Origin: a virus
Length of the DNA stretch: 23,893 bases
Virus record (IMG/VR): IMGVR_UViG_3300037882_001127
Span: 1-23,893 of that record
Strand: one strand, 5' to 3'
A program made the position numbers and the translations under genes. This document shows, one piece after another, positions 3,862-23,873 of this stretch (position 1 is the first letter of the stretch; every line of letters starts with the position of its first letter). The notes under the pieces are model-generated. The model did no database searches, was not told where the DNA came from, and saw only the letters and a program-made list of their open reading frames with translations.

Positions 3862-4791
3862 TTACATTGTGGTTGTGATAATCTGAACCTTAACGCCCTC
3901 TGTACGCATACCGTTGATCCAAAGATCAATTGTGATGTCGTAAGAGTTAACTTTGGTTGAAGATTTCTCAACGCCCATATCACCGATTTCCATCGCCATA
4001 GCGATACTTTCGGGAGCCATAGACACGCATGAGCGAGTTGTAGCACCTTCCGGCAAGATTGGGGATGCAACTTGCAATCCGCCATTCTCTGACCCAGCAA
4101 ACAGGACGATAGGATAAGAACCAGCTTTATCCATTACACCTTTTTCGACTGGATAGCCTTGGATGTAACGGGTGTTGATGAATTTATCTTCGTTCATCAA
4201 CTGGTTATTTTCCTTGCCTGTTATAGCTAAGGTGGATTTCAGAGCCACTTCAAGAGGTACATCGTTATTGATATAGTTTTGAGTTAGCTTCTGAACGGTT
4301 GTATAAGTGAAACCCGCAGTCGCATCAATCGTCAACACGCCATCGGCGGCGGCTGTGATAGATGTGGCAGCAGCATCCGGCGCACCAACCAAAACAGCAC
4401 CAACAGCAGATGCAACCGCGATACGGTCAATCATACGCTCTTTGGCGTTGTCGAGCTGTGTCAAGATGTCCGAGGTCGGGTCTTTCAACAGTTCGTTGAT
4501 GTCATACTTTGCGTCAATTGTGACAGTCCGAGTGAAACGGCGTTTCGTGAACTGACGGTTATCAAGCGCATAGTCGCCATATTGTTTGTCCGGATTACGG
4601 GTGTTTACTTCCGCAAGTTCCACACGACCAATACGAGCCATGTTGTTTGTTTTACCTTGAGACGGAAGAAATTTAATTGCTCCTGTCGATACAAGGCGGG
4701 ATTTAGTTTGTTGAGCGAGAGCATAAAAGCTGTCCATAAAGTTCAACTTTGCGCCCTGATCAATACTTGGATTTACTGCGTTGGAAGGCAT
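3862..4791 (-). CDS. Major capsid protein
   Basis: The product is 309 aa. It has the profile of an HK97-fold podovirus capsid protein: an N-arm (NPSIDQGAKLNFMDSFYALAQQTKSRL), a TRTVTIDAKYDINELLKDPTSD segment like the E-loop/spine region, and a C-terminal SYDITIDLWINGMRTEG strand typical of BPP-1-like and related capsids. I choose ATG 4791 over the in-frame TTG at 4797 because GGAG (4802..4799) sits 7 nt upstream of the ATG. The gene follows scaffold and the 234-aa protein, and has its own terminator-promoter pair upstream, consistent with very high late expression. Assignment combines order, length and pattern. Confidence 0.85.
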   Translation of the reverse strand: MPSNAVNPSIDQGAKLNFMDSFYALAQQTKSRLVSTGAIKFLPSQGKTNNMARIGRVELAEVNTRNPDKQYGDYALDNRQFTKRRFTRTVTIDAKYDINELLKDPTSDILTQLDNAKERMIDRIAVASAVGAVLVGAPDAAATSITAAADGVLTIDATAGFTYTTVQKLTQNYINNDVPLEVALKSTLAITGKENNQLMNEDKFINTRYIQGYPVEKGVMDKAGSYPIVLFAGSENGGLQVASPILPEGATTRSCVSMAPESIAMAMEIGDMGVEKSSTKVNSYDITIDLWINGMRTEGVKVQIITTTM

Positions 4792-15487: not shown

Positions 15488-15515
15488 TTTATACAGATAT
15501 TTTAAAAAACGTCAA
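15488..15515 (-). promoter_or_regulatory. Leftward promoter for the 104/29/35-aa operon
   Basis: TTGACG (15515..15510), a 16-nt spacer and TATAAA (15493..15488) form a strong sigma70-like promoter. The -35 is one arm of the GTCAAACA/TGTTTGAC palindrome, so binding there should shut it off. Confidence 0.75.
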
Positions 15516-15529
15516 ACATTTTGTTTGAC
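15511..15529. promoter_or_regulatory. Operator palindrome A between divergent transcripts
   Basis: GTCAAACA (15511-15518), 3 nt and TGTTTGAC (15522-15529) make a perfect 19-bp dyad. The right arm plus the next base supplies a rightward TTGACA (15525-15530); the -10 with 17-nt spacing (TAAAAC) is weak, so the rightward start may need help. The left arm supplies the leftward -35. Confidence 0.75.
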
Positions 15530-15602
15530 AACATTAAAATAAATCTTTAAAACGATAATGCTGATCGGAAATCATTCCGCAAAAACACAGGAGAAATAAA
15601 TC

Positions 15603-15968
15603 ATGTCACTAACTCAAATCGTACAATCTGCACAGACTGAATGCTTTAATAATCACGGCGTATTTTTCGCATTCTCAAACGAGCAACTTGATCAACAGAA
15701 AAAAGAGGGCGTTATTTATGTGAGCTTGGGGGGCGGTCTGATCTGTCCTAAAGCTAACGTCAAGGCGTTTGTTAATGATCATGCGAATATAATTTCCAAT
15801 GGCATCAAAACCGATATTGAGAAAAACGGTAAAGATGCAATCATTCGCCGCGAATTAGACAATCATGAATGTTTCTACACTGGAGACGTTGAGGACTGCA
15901 TTGATGCGCTGGACGGTTACGGCTTCACAAGAGAGGACATCATAGCCGTTTATAACAAGGGCGAATAA
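15603..15968 (+). CDS. Conserved phage protein of unknown function (121 aa)
   Basis: The product is a 121-aa soluble protein with FFAFSNEQLDQQKKEGVIYVSLGGGLICPKANVKAFV, a pattern I associate with small conserved phage early proteins of unknown function, and an acidic C-terminal half (DVEDCIDALDGYGFTREDIIAVYNKGE). GGAG lies 9 nt before the ATG. It is the first rightward gene after operator palindrome A. The first copy of the two-hairpin RNA element follows 10 nt after its stop. No catalytic motif seen. Confidence 0.8.
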   Translation: MSLTQIVQSAQTECFNNHGVFFAFSNEQLDQQKKEGVIYVSLGGGLICPKANVKAFVNDHANIISNGIKTDIEKNGKDAIIRRELDNHECFYTGDVEDCIDALDGYGFTREDIIAVYNKGE

Positions 15969-15970
15969 TT

Positions 15971-16021
15971 CTAGGTGAGAGGACAGGGTTTATCCTGTCT
16001 TCAAATCTGGAATTAACCAGA
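15971..16021 (+). ncRNA. Two-hairpin RNA element, copy 1
   Basis: Ten nt after the upstream stop, hairpin 1 pairs GAGGACAGG (15979-15987) with CCTGTCTTC (15994-16002). The linker AAAT follows, then hairpin 2 TCTGG/CCAGA (16006-16010, 16017-16021) with an AATTAA loop. The 5' flank AGGTGA is shared with copy 2. No U-tract follows, so it is not a terminator. The next gene starts 23 nt downstream with a weak ribosome site. Confidence 0.7.
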
Positions 16022-16044
16022 GCTTAAACACAGAAAGACAGATC

Positions 16045-16311
16045 ATGAAATATAAAACACACAACACAGATAAATCATTTTCAATCGTTGGCACGTCCTT
16101 AATGGGTTACTGTGACGCGAATACAACTTATGCCGAATTAGTCGCTTGTTTTGGTGAGCCTGAAACGGATATTGATGGCGAAAAAGTTGATGCGGAATGG
16201 TGCATCAAATTTGAAGATGGAACGATTGCGACAATCTATAATTATAAAAACGGCAGAAATTATCTAGGCAAAGAGGGAATGGACGTTGTGGACATGACCG
16301 GAGATGATTAG
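16045..16311 (+). CDS. Conserved phage protein, probably truncated at an amber codon
   Basis: This 88-aa product resembles a phage family with the pattern FGEPxxxxDGxKVDAEWxIxFEDGTxATIYNYKxGxNYLG, followed in relatives (from memory) by a WHIGG motif. Here the frame stops at TAG (16309-16311) exactly where Trp (TGG) would be expected, and the next codons read HIGG in the same frame. Function of the family is unknown. The ribosome site is weak. It may be a real short protein, the front half of a longer product made by amber suppression, or a nonsense mutant. Confidence 0.75.
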   Translation: MKYKTHNTDKSFSIVGTSLMGYCDANTTYAELVACFGEPETDIDGEKVDAEWCIKFEDGTIATIYNYKNGRNYLGKEGMDVVDMTGDD

Positions 16312-16323
16312 CACATTGGCGGC

Positions 16324-16698
16324 GTGAGCAAATCGGCAATTGATCGCGTACAAGAAACCATTAACGCGCATCGTGATTGGGTAAAGACAAACGGCGGCAA
16401 TGCTCCGACCCAAAAAACAAATATTGATGATATAACTCCGGATGAAAACAAAGAGCGTCCACAATATACCGAGCAAGAAAAACAAGAGATGCGCGATAAA
16501 TTGGAAGCAATGATAAAAAATAATCATGGGGTTTTATTGATGAGCGTTTCCCAAAATGAAAAAGAGATTGCAGTAAACAGTCATATCATGAATGTTTCGG
16601 ACGAAGAAATCGGCATTTCGTTTTATTCTATAGTCGAAGATCATCCGTTTGTTTTGGTTGAATTGATGGAAAATCTTAGAAGAAGAAAAGCCGCCTAA
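16324..16698 (+). CDS. Downstream part of the amber-split protein, or separate 124-aa protein
   Basis: This frame is continuous with the 88-aa gene apart from one TAG: HIGG then VSKSAIDRVQETINAHRDW.., which looks like the family's C-terminal tail. From about residue 54 a separate segment (MRDKLEAMIKNNHGVLLMSVSQNEKEIAVNSH..) continues to LRRRKAA and may be a second small domain. The GTG at 16324 has only a poor ribosome site (GGCGG just upstream), so independent initiation is doubtful. The two-hairpin element copy 2 follows 11 nt after its stop. Confidence 0.6.
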   Translation: MSKSAIDRVQETINAHRDWVKTNGGNAPTQKTNIDDITPDENKERPQYTEQEKQEMRDKLEAMIKNNHGVLLMSVSQNEKEIAVNSHIMNVSDEEIGISFYSIVEDHPFVLVELMENLRRRKAA

Positions 16699-16702
16699 AT
16701 TT

Positions 16703-16749
16703 CAGGTGAGAGGGCGACATTGCGCGCCCTCAAATCTGCAATTATGCAG
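16703..16749 (+). ncRNA. Two-hairpin RNA element, copy 2
   Basis: Eleven nt after the upstream stop, hairpin 1 pairs GAGGGCG (16710-16716) with CGCCCTC (16725-16731). The linker AAAT follows, then hairpin 2 CTGCA/TGCAG (16736-16740, 16745-16749) with an ATTA loop. Relative to copy 1, pairs 5 and 7 of hairpin 1 (A-T to G-C) and pair 4 of the CTGG/CCAG stem in hairpin 2 (G-C to C-G) change on both sides, so pairing is kept. It lies just before the clamp gene. Confidence 0.72.
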
Positions 16750-16771
16750 GATCGAAGAAAGAGGAAATAAA

Positions 16772-17347
16772 ATGAAAGCAATACAATTCGCAGTTCCAAT
16801 TCAAAAGCTAAAAGCCGTTAATGTCTTTTCATCCAAAGAGGAAGTCAGATATTATTTAAACGGCGTTTATGTTGATATTGATGAGAGCGTTTGTACTATG
16901 GTCGCAACGGATGGTCATAGATTGATAAAAATAGATCATCATGATGAAAGCTATGAGGGCGATAAATTTAAGGGAATTATCCCACGTCAAATTATAGACA
17001 AAATTAAAATCACAAGAGGAATGGACGATGCCTTGATCCACGTTGCAGAGAGCGGGAAAATCACAATCGAATATGATGGTGATAGTTTTTCAGGCGAATT
17101 AGTTGATGGAACATATCCGGACTACACAAGAGTTATTCCTAAAGTTCCAAAAAATAATAAAGGTGCTGCACAGATGGGATTTAATCCGAAATATTTGGCT
17201 GATTTTGAAAAGATCAACTCCATTCTTGGATATAAAACTAGCGGCATCAAAATGATCATCACCGGAGAAAGAGAGCCTGTTATCATCACGAGAGACGGGG
17301 GCATCAGCGAATATTTTGCAGTCCTCATGCCGTTGCGCGTGGCTTGA
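16772..17347 (+). CDS. Sliding-clamp-like protein (DnaN-related, two domains)
   Basis: The 191-aa product carries marks of the bacterial beta clamp: VRYYLNGVYVDI then MVATDGHRLIKI (about 25-54), DGTYPDYTRVIP (112-123), and a C-terminal EYFAVLMPLRV matching the clamp's last strand (Y-x-VMP-x-R). It is about half the length of bacterial DnaN (about 366 aa, three domains), so only two clamp domains fit. I place the start at ATG 16772 with GAGG 7 nt upstream; the longer frame to 16706 runs through RNA element copy 2. It would tether a polymerase or nuclease to DNA. The polymerase is not in the window. Confidence 0.82.
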   Translation: MKAIQFAVPIQKLKAVNVFSSKEEVRYYLNGVYVDIDESVCTMVATDGHRLIKIDHHDESYEGDKFKGIIPRQIIDKIKITRGMDDALIHVAESGKITIEYDGDSFSGELVDGTYPDYTRVIPKVPKNNKGAAQMGFNPKYLADFEKINSILGYKTSGIKMIITGEREPVIITRDGGISEYFAVLMPLRVA

Positions 17348-17349
17348 TT

Positions 17350-17398
17350 ACAGTCCGGAGCGCATCCTATGGGTGCGTTCTAGTCTGCAATTATGCAG
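17350..17398 (+). ncRNA. Two-hairpin RNA element, copy 3
   Basis: Ten nt after the clamp stop, hairpin 1 pairs GAGCGCATCC (17358-17367) with GGGTGCGTTC (17371-17380) around a TAT loop. A 4-nt linker (TAGT) and hairpin 2 CTGCA/TGCAG with an ATTA loop (17385-17398) follow, identical to copy 2. Pair 4 of hairpin 1 is C-G here against G-C in copies 1 and 2. The fold is kept although the stem sequence differs. Confidence 0.7.
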
Positions 17399-17400
17399 AG

Positions 17401-17500
17401 AGGCGGAAAAGGAGAGGCAACGAGTACGAAAGCCGATCCGGATTGTGGTGCGTTACTGGAAACAGAGAAAGCAATCCCCGCCTATTTTTTTAAAAGGAGA
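17401..17500 (+). promoter_or_regulatory. Structured leader before the 98-aa gene
   Basis: AGGCGG (17401-17406) can pair with CCGCCT (17478-17483). Inside, GGATTG (17440-17445) pairs with CAATCC (17472-17477) and encloses a CTG-GAAA-CAG tetraloop hairpin (17456-17465). The closing stem is followed by A then T7 (17485-17491) and immediately by AAAAGGAG. This resembles an attenuator: a terminator-like end just ahead of the ribosome site. Confidence 0.5.
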
Positions 17501-17504
17501 GATC

Positions 17505-18070: not shown

Positions 18071-18080
18071 TATTAACAAG

Positions 18081-18115
18081 TGAAGCCCTAAGTTTTTCTA
18101 GGGCTTCATTATTTT
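18081..18115 (+). terminator. Strong intrinsic terminator ending the first early operon
   Basis: TGAAGCCCTA (18081-18090) and TAGGGCTTCA (18099-18108) form a perfect 10-bp stem with an 8-nt loop, followed by TTATTTTT. It lies 10 nt past the 87-aa gene and just before operator palindrome B. Confidence 0.92.
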
Positions 18116-18125
18116 TGTGCAAAAT

Positions 18126-18144
18126 ATCAAACAAAGTGTTTGAC
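18126..18144. promoter_or_regulatory. Operator palindrome B before the primase-helicase operon
   Basis: ATCAAACA (18126-18133), 3 nt and TGTTTGAC (18137-18144) repeat the 8-3-8 design of palindrome A, with one mismatch at the outermost pair. It overlaps the -35 of the promoter described next. Confidence 0.72.
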
Positions 18145-22516: not shown

Positions 22517-23057
22517 AGATAGGATTGTCTTTATTGACACCGAAAGCACAAAGTTTATTAAAGGCGGAGGATTAAAACAAGAGGGGCAAGCTCGCGTTTG
22601 CCAGATCGCTTTAATATCCTGCGATGGGGTCGGGAATATTCTTGATGAATACTCATCAATTATTAAACCGGATGGCTGGTCAATATCAGAGGGCGCATAC
22701 AAAGTCCACGGTTTCACAGATGATCATTGCGCCGAGCATGGATTTGATATGAAAGATGTCATTCAGGTTTATCTTGGTTATGTTGCCTCTGCGACAAGCG
22801 TTGTTGCACATGGAATACATTTTGATAAGCAGATCATGGATATAGAATGCGCTTATCAGGGGCTAGAAAATCCCCGTAGGAGTTGGTTTTGTACTATGGT
22901 TGCCAACAAACATTTAAACAATGGTAAGTATGCCAGCCTTGCAAAATGTTACGAGCATTATTGCGGTGAGCCGATGCCAGAAGGTGCGCACGATGCGGTT
23001 GTTGATGCTCACGCGCTGCGGAAAATTTACTTTGCAATGAGGGGGATTAAATTATGA
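22494..23057 (+). CDS. DEDDh 3'-5' exonuclease
   Basis: The 187-aa product has the DnaQ/RNase T-type motifs in order: Exo I FIDTES (D15, E17), Exo II HGIHFDKQI (D111), and Exo III HDAVVDAHAL (H166, D171). These four acids plus His make a complete DEDDh site. The protein could proofread, degrade host DNA or trim recombination ends. It starts 23 nt inside the helicase gene and ends by ATGA overlap with the methyltransferase. Length is typical of stand-alone phage exonucleases. Confidence 0.9.
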   Translation: MEINEQFKDRIVFIDTESTKFIKGGGLKQEGQARVCQIALISCDGVGNILDEYSSIIKPDGWSISEGAYKVHGFTDDHCAEHGFDMKDVIQVYLGYVASATSVVAHGIHFDKQIMDIECAYQGLENPRRSWFCTMVANKHLNNGKYASLAKCYEHYCGEPMPEGAHDAVVDAHALRKIYFAMRGIKL

Positions 23058-23474
23058 GTGATAGAAGCGGTAAACCAGATGATGATCATTGGCAAACTCC
23101 CCAATGGTTATACGATCAATTAAATGCAGAGTTTAATTTTGATTTTGACCCCTGCCCTATCCATGCAGATTTTGATGGATTAAAAGTGTCGTGGGGGGGG
23201 GGCAAACTTTGTCAATCCTCCTTACAATCGGGTGGACAAGCCGAAGTTTATCAAAAAAGCATACGAAGAATGGAAGCAGGGGAAAACGTGTGTTCTGCTT
23301 ATTCCTGCGGCTACGGGTACGGCTCAATTTCACGACTTAATTTTGCCGAATGCAGAGGTTAGATTTTTACGGGGCAGGATTGCTTTTGTTGCCCCTGACC
23401 AGCCACGAAATGCAAAGGCAACCAAAAAAGGAAAGCACGACAGCATGATAGTAATTTTTAGAGGAAACAAATGA
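23054..23474 (+). CDS. Phage DNA N6-adenine methyltransferase, frameshifted at a G10 tract
   Basis: The first frame reads through DDHWQTPQWLYDQL and FDFDPCP to DGLKVSWGGG, then leaves frame. Skipping one G of the run at 23193-23202 restores SWGGANFVNPPYNRVDKPKF, with the catalytic NPPY, and continues to the TGA at 23472-23474. The repaired protein is 139 aa, matching the phage Dam-type methyltransferase family. As written, the first frame ends at 23362 without NPPY. The cause may be sequencing error, mutation, slippage or phase variation. It is tightly coupled: ATGA overlaps at both ends. Confidence 0.85.
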
Positions 23475-23848: not shown

Positions 23849-23852
23849 ACAT

Positions 23853-23873
23853 TGTTTGACAAATCGTCAAACA
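23853..23873. promoter_or_regulatory. Operator-like palindrome C upstream of the next gene
   Basis: TGTTTGAC (23853-23860), 5 nt and GTCAAACA (23866-23873) form a dyad from the same half-sites as A and B, but in everted order. It begins 4 nt after the VRR-NUC stop and lies just before AGAAAGGT, a probable ribosome site for a gene beginning beyond the right edge. Confidence 0.65.

Follow-up and report, generated by a model that had tools for sequence, protein, structure and literature searches.

A repeated intercistronic phage RNA element with two mutually exclusive predicted folds

Introduction

Three intergenic gaps in one phage genome carry similar inverted repeats, raising the question of what these elements are and how they might act on the genes they separate. 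The window studied here is the whole virus record of 23,893 bases. It derives from a tailed phage with structural genes running leftward and early and replication genes rightward. A sequence-only reading had placed three copies of a two-hairpin RNA element in the gaps at 15971-16021, 16703-16749 and 17350-17398, and all three were recovered there. We sought to define the extent of the element, its fold, its occurrence in related phages and its possible role.

Genomic context

All copies lie within a single rightward early operon. Its likely start is an operator/promoter near 15512-15550 and its likely end a terminator-like hairpin (18079-18110), directly followed by a second operator/promoter. 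The gene order is DUF7659, copy 1, two small proteins, copy 2, a clamp-like protein of 191 residues, copy 3 and a small protein. A fourth copy was not found in the record on either strand at zero mismatches, and the three copies are its only strong model matches. The features are as follows.

15512..15528, no strand assigned: operator-like palindrome TCAAACA-N3-TGTTTGA, overlapping a TTGACA box
15603..15968, + strand: DUF7659 protein gene (PF24692; Pfam E 1.3e-32), upstream of copy 1
15966-16022, + strand: copy 1
15966..15976, + strand: copy 1 arm A (TAATTCTAGGT), starting with the DUF7659 gene stop codon
15979..16002, + strand: copy 1 hairpin 1 (GAGGACAGGG TTTA TCCTGTCTTC)
16005..16015, + strand: copy 1 arm C (ATCTGGAATTA), the 5' arm and loop of hairpin 2
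16017..16020, + strand: copy 1 arm D (CCAG), the 3' arm of hairpin 2
16697-16751, + strand: copy 2
16697..16707, + strand: copy 2 arm A (AAATTTCAGGT), overlapping the stop codon TAA 16696-16698
16710..16731, + strand: copy 2 hairpin 1 (GAGGGCG ACATTGCG CGCCCTC)
16734..16744, + strand: copy 2 arm C (ATCTGCAATTA)
16746..16749, + strand: copy 2 arm D (GCAG), with the clamp ATG 22 nt downstream
16772..17347, + strand: beta-clamp-like protein gene, DNA polymerase III beta central domain (Pfam E 7e-16), between copies 2 and 3
17345-17400, + strand: copy 3
17345..17355, + strand: copy 3 arm A (TGATTACAGTC), starting with the clamp-like gene stop codon
17358..17380, + strand: copy 3 hairpin 1 (GAGCGCA TCCTATGGG TGCGTTC)
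17383..17393, + strand: copy 3 arm C (GTCTGCAATTA)
17395..17398, + strand: copy 3 arm D (GCAG)
18079..18110, + strand: terminator-like hairpin with a T-rich tail

Several observations concern the surroundings of the element. A second perfect TCAAACA-N3-TGTTTGA palindrome, again overlapping a TTGACA box, is located at 18127-18143, and a weaker palindrome of this type near 23849-23873; these palindromes are likely phage repressor operators. The clamp-like family is called 'RusA-like Holliday junction resolvase' by PHROGs 3007 and 12598. Pfam instead matches it to the DNA polymerase III beta central domain, and the resolvase label, carried by many enteric phage genes, is probably wrong. After copy 3, about 105 nt (17399-17504) lack a convincing start codon, possibly reflecting an insertion or a lost small gene; in the related phage contig L182 a Shine-Dalgarno sequence and ATG directly follow the element. 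Elsewhere, a run of ten G (23193-23202) splits an apparent single methyltransferase-like gene into overlapping frames (23054-23362 and 23232-23474), and is possibly a sequencing error or a phase-variable tract.

An additional arm at the upstream stop codon

Hairpin 1 (H1) opens with GAG 10, 11 and 10 nt past the upstream stop in copies 1, 2 and 3, as originally described, and the 4-nt linker to hairpin 2 reads AAAT, AAAT and TAGT. The proposed form CTGN...NCAG of hairpin 2 holds with a 6-nt loop (CTGN-AATTAN-NCAG) in place of the 5-nt AATTA first assigned. In hairpin 1, pairs 4, 5 and 7 indeed vary among the copies while remaining complementary throughout, as does pair 4 in hairpin 2; pair 3 of hairpin 1 varies as well (G-U/G-C). 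Hairpin 1 is variable in sequence with its pairing always kept, and hairpin 2 is conserved.

The 10-nt offset does not mark the start of the element, which lies at the stop codon itself. A model of the element also matched the opposite strand, at copy 2 with 18.2 bits and, with a longer model, at all three copies, indicating an imperfect inverted repeat; this led to the recognition of a previously overlooked segment, arm A (AATTNCAG), which begins at the upstream stop codon. The order of parts is thus arm A, H1, arm C and arm D. The upstream stops are TAA 15966-68 (copy 1), TAA 16696-98 (copy 2) and TGA 17345-47 (copy 3), and each arm A begins at the stop or one base into it.

Two competing structures

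The copies fold more stably than their dinucleotide shuffles, with z-scores of -5.64, -2.92 and -3.92 for copies 1, 2 and 3, and 0, 1 and 0 of 200 shuffles doing as well. The minimum free energy fold of copies 1 and 2 is one long stem rather than two hairpins: the stop-codon segment pairs with ATCTGNAATTA around hairpin 1, in copy 1 with 11 of 11 bases of arm A paired to 16005-16015. More generally, arm C (ATCTGNAATTA or GTCTGCAATTA) can pair with arm A to give a long form, an imperfect stem of about 17-20 pairs that encloses H1 and contains a symmetric internal loop. Alternatively, C pairs with D to give the short hairpin 2 with its 6-nt loop. The two pairings are mutually exclusive because the 5' half of C serves both A and D. 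The two-hairpin description therefore stands as one fold of the element, and falls as its only fold.

Constrained folding gave energies for the long and two-hairpin forms of -27.4 and -20.7 kcal/mol in copy 1, -21.1 and -20.1 in copy 2, and -23.1 and -23.7 in copy 3. The folds lie within about 1 kcal/mol of each other in copies 2 and 3 and in the relatives L182, L195, L188 and L204 (see below). In most relatives the long form is predicted to be favoured, by a median of 5.5 and up to 10.5 kcal/mol, so the two-hairpin form would need help to appear. The long form is predicted in every copy once D is blocked, and the two hairpins form only with arm A unpaired. A pseudoknot between the 5' half of A and the hairpin 2 loop, with C:D kept, was considered and rejected, since it fails to explain why the 3' half of A tracks C.

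Homologues in related phages

Relatives were sought by alignment-based protein scans, single-sequence peptide scans having given too few. Scans for clamp and primase relatives yielded 160 loci, with the clamp-encoding contigs being the best 80 of 396. A close DNA relative of the window phage was not found in the phage collection. A model (R1), built on copies with hairpin 1 loops trimmed to equal length, picked out L182, the closest clamp relative among the loci kept (39% identity). Its element (TTGATTACAGACCGGAGCCGCtcaagaatggGCGGCTCTAGCCTGCAATCATGCGGG, at 4671-4712) directly follows the clamp stop codon, the site of copy 3, and L182 shares with the window phage both the gene neighbourhood and the operator palindrome (near 2755). 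Compared with copy 3, pairs 5, 6 and 7 of hairpin 1 are all altered with pairing intact, the outer pair of hairpin 2 has changed from U-A to C-G, and pair 2 of A:C from G-U to G-C.

The 75 nt past the clamp stop were then read unfiltered in 51 relatives. The A-H1-C-D plan, in other sequences, occurs just after or just before the clamp gene in at least a dozen further contigs. L183-L185 carry CTATTGC ... TGGC-AATAGT-GCCA, and ten contigs (L194, L195, L199, L209, L212, L216, L242, L243, L248 and L260) carry CTAACGCCA ... TGGC-GCTAGT-GCCA; a second copy in L260 reads CCTAGCACCA ... TGGC-ACTAGG-GCCA. In several relatives there are two copies, either on both sides of the clamp or after it. A block CCGGA(G)C beside A is common to L195, L243, L260b, copy 3 and L182, which ties these groups to copy 3 and L182.

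Of 3496 post-stop windows scanned with a descriptor, 26 matched, about 20 of them adjoining a clamp gene; these include a further lineage (L188, L190, L204) with the element just upstream of the clamp. Thirteen matches directly follow clamp stops (at most 80 such windows) compared to 13 in the 3416 windows elsewhere, an enrichment with a rough Fisher value of 1e-15 among contigs that are not independent; matches away from the clamp look like chance. When the requirement for D was dropped, 150 windows matched. Complementarity of the D type is near-universal only in true elements.

The element was not found in enteric phages with the clamp gene as the last of its operon, which carry ordinary terminators or nothing after the clamp. 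Vibrio phage 1.087.A has a gene downstream of the clamp, but the element was not found there. This distribution fits a role between cistrons and not one devoted to the clamp itself, since the elements sit between genes of the same direction and are absent where the clamp ends the operon, as in the enteric phages.

Two other structures were observed near clamp genes. Clamp-bearing phages L221 and L223 (three copies each) and L211 and L259 (two each) repeat a simple GC hairpin of another kind, built around GGCAATCCCGCC or GGCAATCCTGCC; a T-rich stretch follows it, and the Shine-Dalgarno of each successive gene lies directly downstream. In L250, L252, L253 and L254, a module boundary is marked, immediately before the clamp gene, by the inverted repeat TCAAATCAAAGCGCA...TGCGCTTGAGTTTGA.

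A number of candidate matches were set aside. Exact matches to the hairpin 2 pattern occur in viral and genome collections in about the numbers predicted by chance, with no good hairpin 1 adjoining except in L059. L059 (1434-1473) matches the two-hairpin model perfectly (32.5 bits), occurs once in its contig, and has no arm A. An unrelated phage gene has it in its 5' leader, a short way past a TATAAT box; the match is doubtful, being either chance or a distant relative. L164 reaches 32.3 bits with two broken pairs, illustrating the reach of chance scores. Matches in alphaproteobacterial genomes (L355, L356) lie inside coding genes at a frequency not above chance, and the pattern of the L199 group has one unrelated match in 385 such genomes. 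G187, a bacterial-genome contig whose capsid protein is 52% identical, contained no element in the 20 kb searched.

Covariation of both partners of arm C

To compare the two pairings, we hand-assembled a gapless alignment (A9) of trimmed A, C and D arms taken from 17 distinct copies. For A:C, 80% of cells are paired and double changes affect 8 of 10 pairs. There are 28 double-changed cells compared to 9.8 ± 3.1 after shuffling, and covariation is 0.442 compared to 0.181 ± 0.028, neither value being reached in 500 shuffles. For C:D, 95.6% of cells are paired, with 9 double-changed cells compared to 1.9 ± 1.1 (0 of 500 shuffles). Copies within a phage are paralogues and the contigs are related, so these counts are not independent and the shuffle contrasts are inflated by kinship. 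Each slid register of A:C is only 24-45% paired. In a swap test, arms make 8.0 of 10 A:C pairs with their own partner and 5.45 across different superfamilies; for C:D the figures are 3.8 and 2.9 of 4. The register control and superfamily swap test support the same conclusion as the shuffles, and a two-state architecture is well supported.

The proposal of a selected RNA fold is supported by these homologues with compensatory changes; the lack of covarying homologues in related phages, named at the outset as the outcome that would count against it, did not materialise.

Proposed role and alternatives

In post-stop copies arm A starts -2 to +8 nt from the stop codon, and it lies 0-18 nt beyond that codon. 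A ribosome terminating there has a footprint that reaches this region and, given the position of A, would cover it. From this we infer a possible mechanism. A terminating ribosome would hold A, leaving C free to pair with D as one of two hairpins; on a message that lacks a ribosome at this point, A would capture C and the long duplex would form. More speculatively, the long form may be a processing or decay site of the RNase III type, or a polarity barrier, in which case the fate of the downstream segment might depend on translation of the preceding gene. Our leading reading, tentative and given somewhat less than an even chance, is a two-state phage RNA between cistrons, its fold chosen by a ribosome that terminates at the preceding stop codon and its long form serving as an mRNA-processing site. 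The position of A near the stop codon could also be explained simply by compact gene spacing. The long stem spans the gap from stop codon to Shine-Dalgarno sequence; Shine-Dalgarno-like sequences fall outside both folds, and a direct route to translation control is therefore not visible. RNA processing or expression control by the element is possible. A bolder and rather unlikely version is that of a new phage RNA switch family at gene junctions, in which the terminating ribosome picks the fold, each junction thereby registering whether the gene before it is translated and adjusting processing or polarity further along the operon, with the sliding-clamp gene as main client.

It is also conceivable, if on balance unlikely, that only the long A:C stem matters, as a single-fold processing or stabilising site of the RNase III type, with C:D a by-product of sequence repeats. 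For most copies the long stem is predicted to be more stable than the alternative; it is an imperfect duplex of ~20 bp with a symmetric internal loop, and its placement between the stop codon and the Shine-Dalgarno of successive genes would, by analogy, resemble T7 intercistronic sites. Against this, D is complementary in nearly all copies and changes along with C, and a D arm of 4 pairs and a 6-nt loop is rare among post-stop inverted repeats outside the element. We consider a site acting as DNA improbable: here a short motif would occur three times (as + - + in A, C and D), bound by a phage protein or serving as a recombination boundary for swaps of the clamp and neighbouring genes. Read together, C and D look like the A motif inverted and present twice with overlap (e.g. 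CTAACGCCA ... TGGCGCTAGTGCCA), the clamp gene of L199, L209 and L216 has near-identical copies on both sides, and conservation in L250 and L252-L254 starts exactly at the inverted repeat before the clamp. However, H1 pairing is kept despite sequence change, which a linear DNA site would not need, the arms differ within one genome (copy 1 and copy 2) with pairwise compensation, and attC core sites are absent.

An antiterminator RNA resembling HK022 put, whose two-hairpin form would bind elongating RNA polymerase and suppress termination in the early operon, is very improbable. What recalls put, which is ~70 nt with two stem-loops (PMC9378689), is a pair of hairpins joined by a short linker in the early operon of a phage. 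The window, however, has three intergenic copies rather than one near each promoter, copy 1 lies ~400 nt from the likely promoter, and formation of the conserved A:C stem would abolish the two hairpins. That the copies are no more than chance hairpins, few and unrelated to each other, or neutral duplicates within a single phage scarcely merits consideration: the conserved hairpin 2 string alone is about as frequent as chance predicts in viral and genome collections, and the window holds only three copies, but the shuffle z-scores, the orthologous copy in L182 and the covariation over lineages contradict it.

If the ribosome-dependent switch is real, it would be a translation sensor located at stop codons inside operons and not in a leader. 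Were the long form the sole functional one, the element would still represent a phage RNA family, so far unlisted, that accompanies a sliding-clamp-like gene. The covariation over several lineages gives it a specific, testable anatomy, with one strand having two conserved partners, one of them at the expected site of a terminating ribosome.

Comparison with known systems

The window had no match in Rfam (release 15) at the gathering score, and a relaxed E-value returned only far sub-threshold chance matches. The sequence-only reading that the copies are not terminators is supported: no T-tract follows D (AGCTTAAACACA, GATCGAAGAAAG, AGAGGCGGAAAA), and no terminator-like site was found at any copy. 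Integron attC sites are imperfect inverted repeats with conserved ends and a variable interior just past a stop codon, a description that also fits the element. The attC cores GTTRRRY (R') and RYYYAAC (R'') are absent from copies 1-3 on both strands, and the suggestion that the copies mark gene cassettes is, in the integron sense, unsupported. T7-like phages have intercistronic RNase III sites between the early genes of a polycistronic transcript, and the element shares with these a long imperfect stem, predicted as a duplex of near 20 bp between cistrons. We know of no conserved alternative pairing or conserved terminal sequences in the T7 sites, unlike the element.

HK022 putL and putR are early-operon phage RNAs able to form two stem-loops with a short linker, as the element is predicted to do only with arm A unpaired. 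putL and putR occur as one copy each near early promoters and bind the zinc-binding domain of the RNA polymerase beta-prime subunit (PMC9378689), whereas the element is multi-copy and intercistronic, and a conserved long stem competes with its two-hairpin form.

Among described phage features, the nearest are the Extended Start-Associated Sequences (ESAS) of cluster K mycobacteriophages. These imperfect inverted repeats recur in gaps between non-structural genes, have a lineage-specific consensus and keep the same gene-family neighbours, and they are tied to a 13-bp SAS (GGGATAGGAGCCC) at the start codon (PMC3203893, PMC12699233). The element likewise consists of inverted repeats with a spacer in non-structural intergenic gaps, has a lineage-specific consensus and is retained beside the same gene families. 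The SAS is absent from the window at up to 2 mismatches, its best matches having 3 mismatches and lying elsewhere. Unlike ESAS, the element starts at the upstream stop, encloses a hairpin free in sequence, and has an extra arm D that competes for C. Repeated intergenic inverted repeats of phage early operons such as ESAS have remained without functional explanation. The element belongs to these repeated intercistronic phage RNA structures, among which its two-partner design is apparently new.
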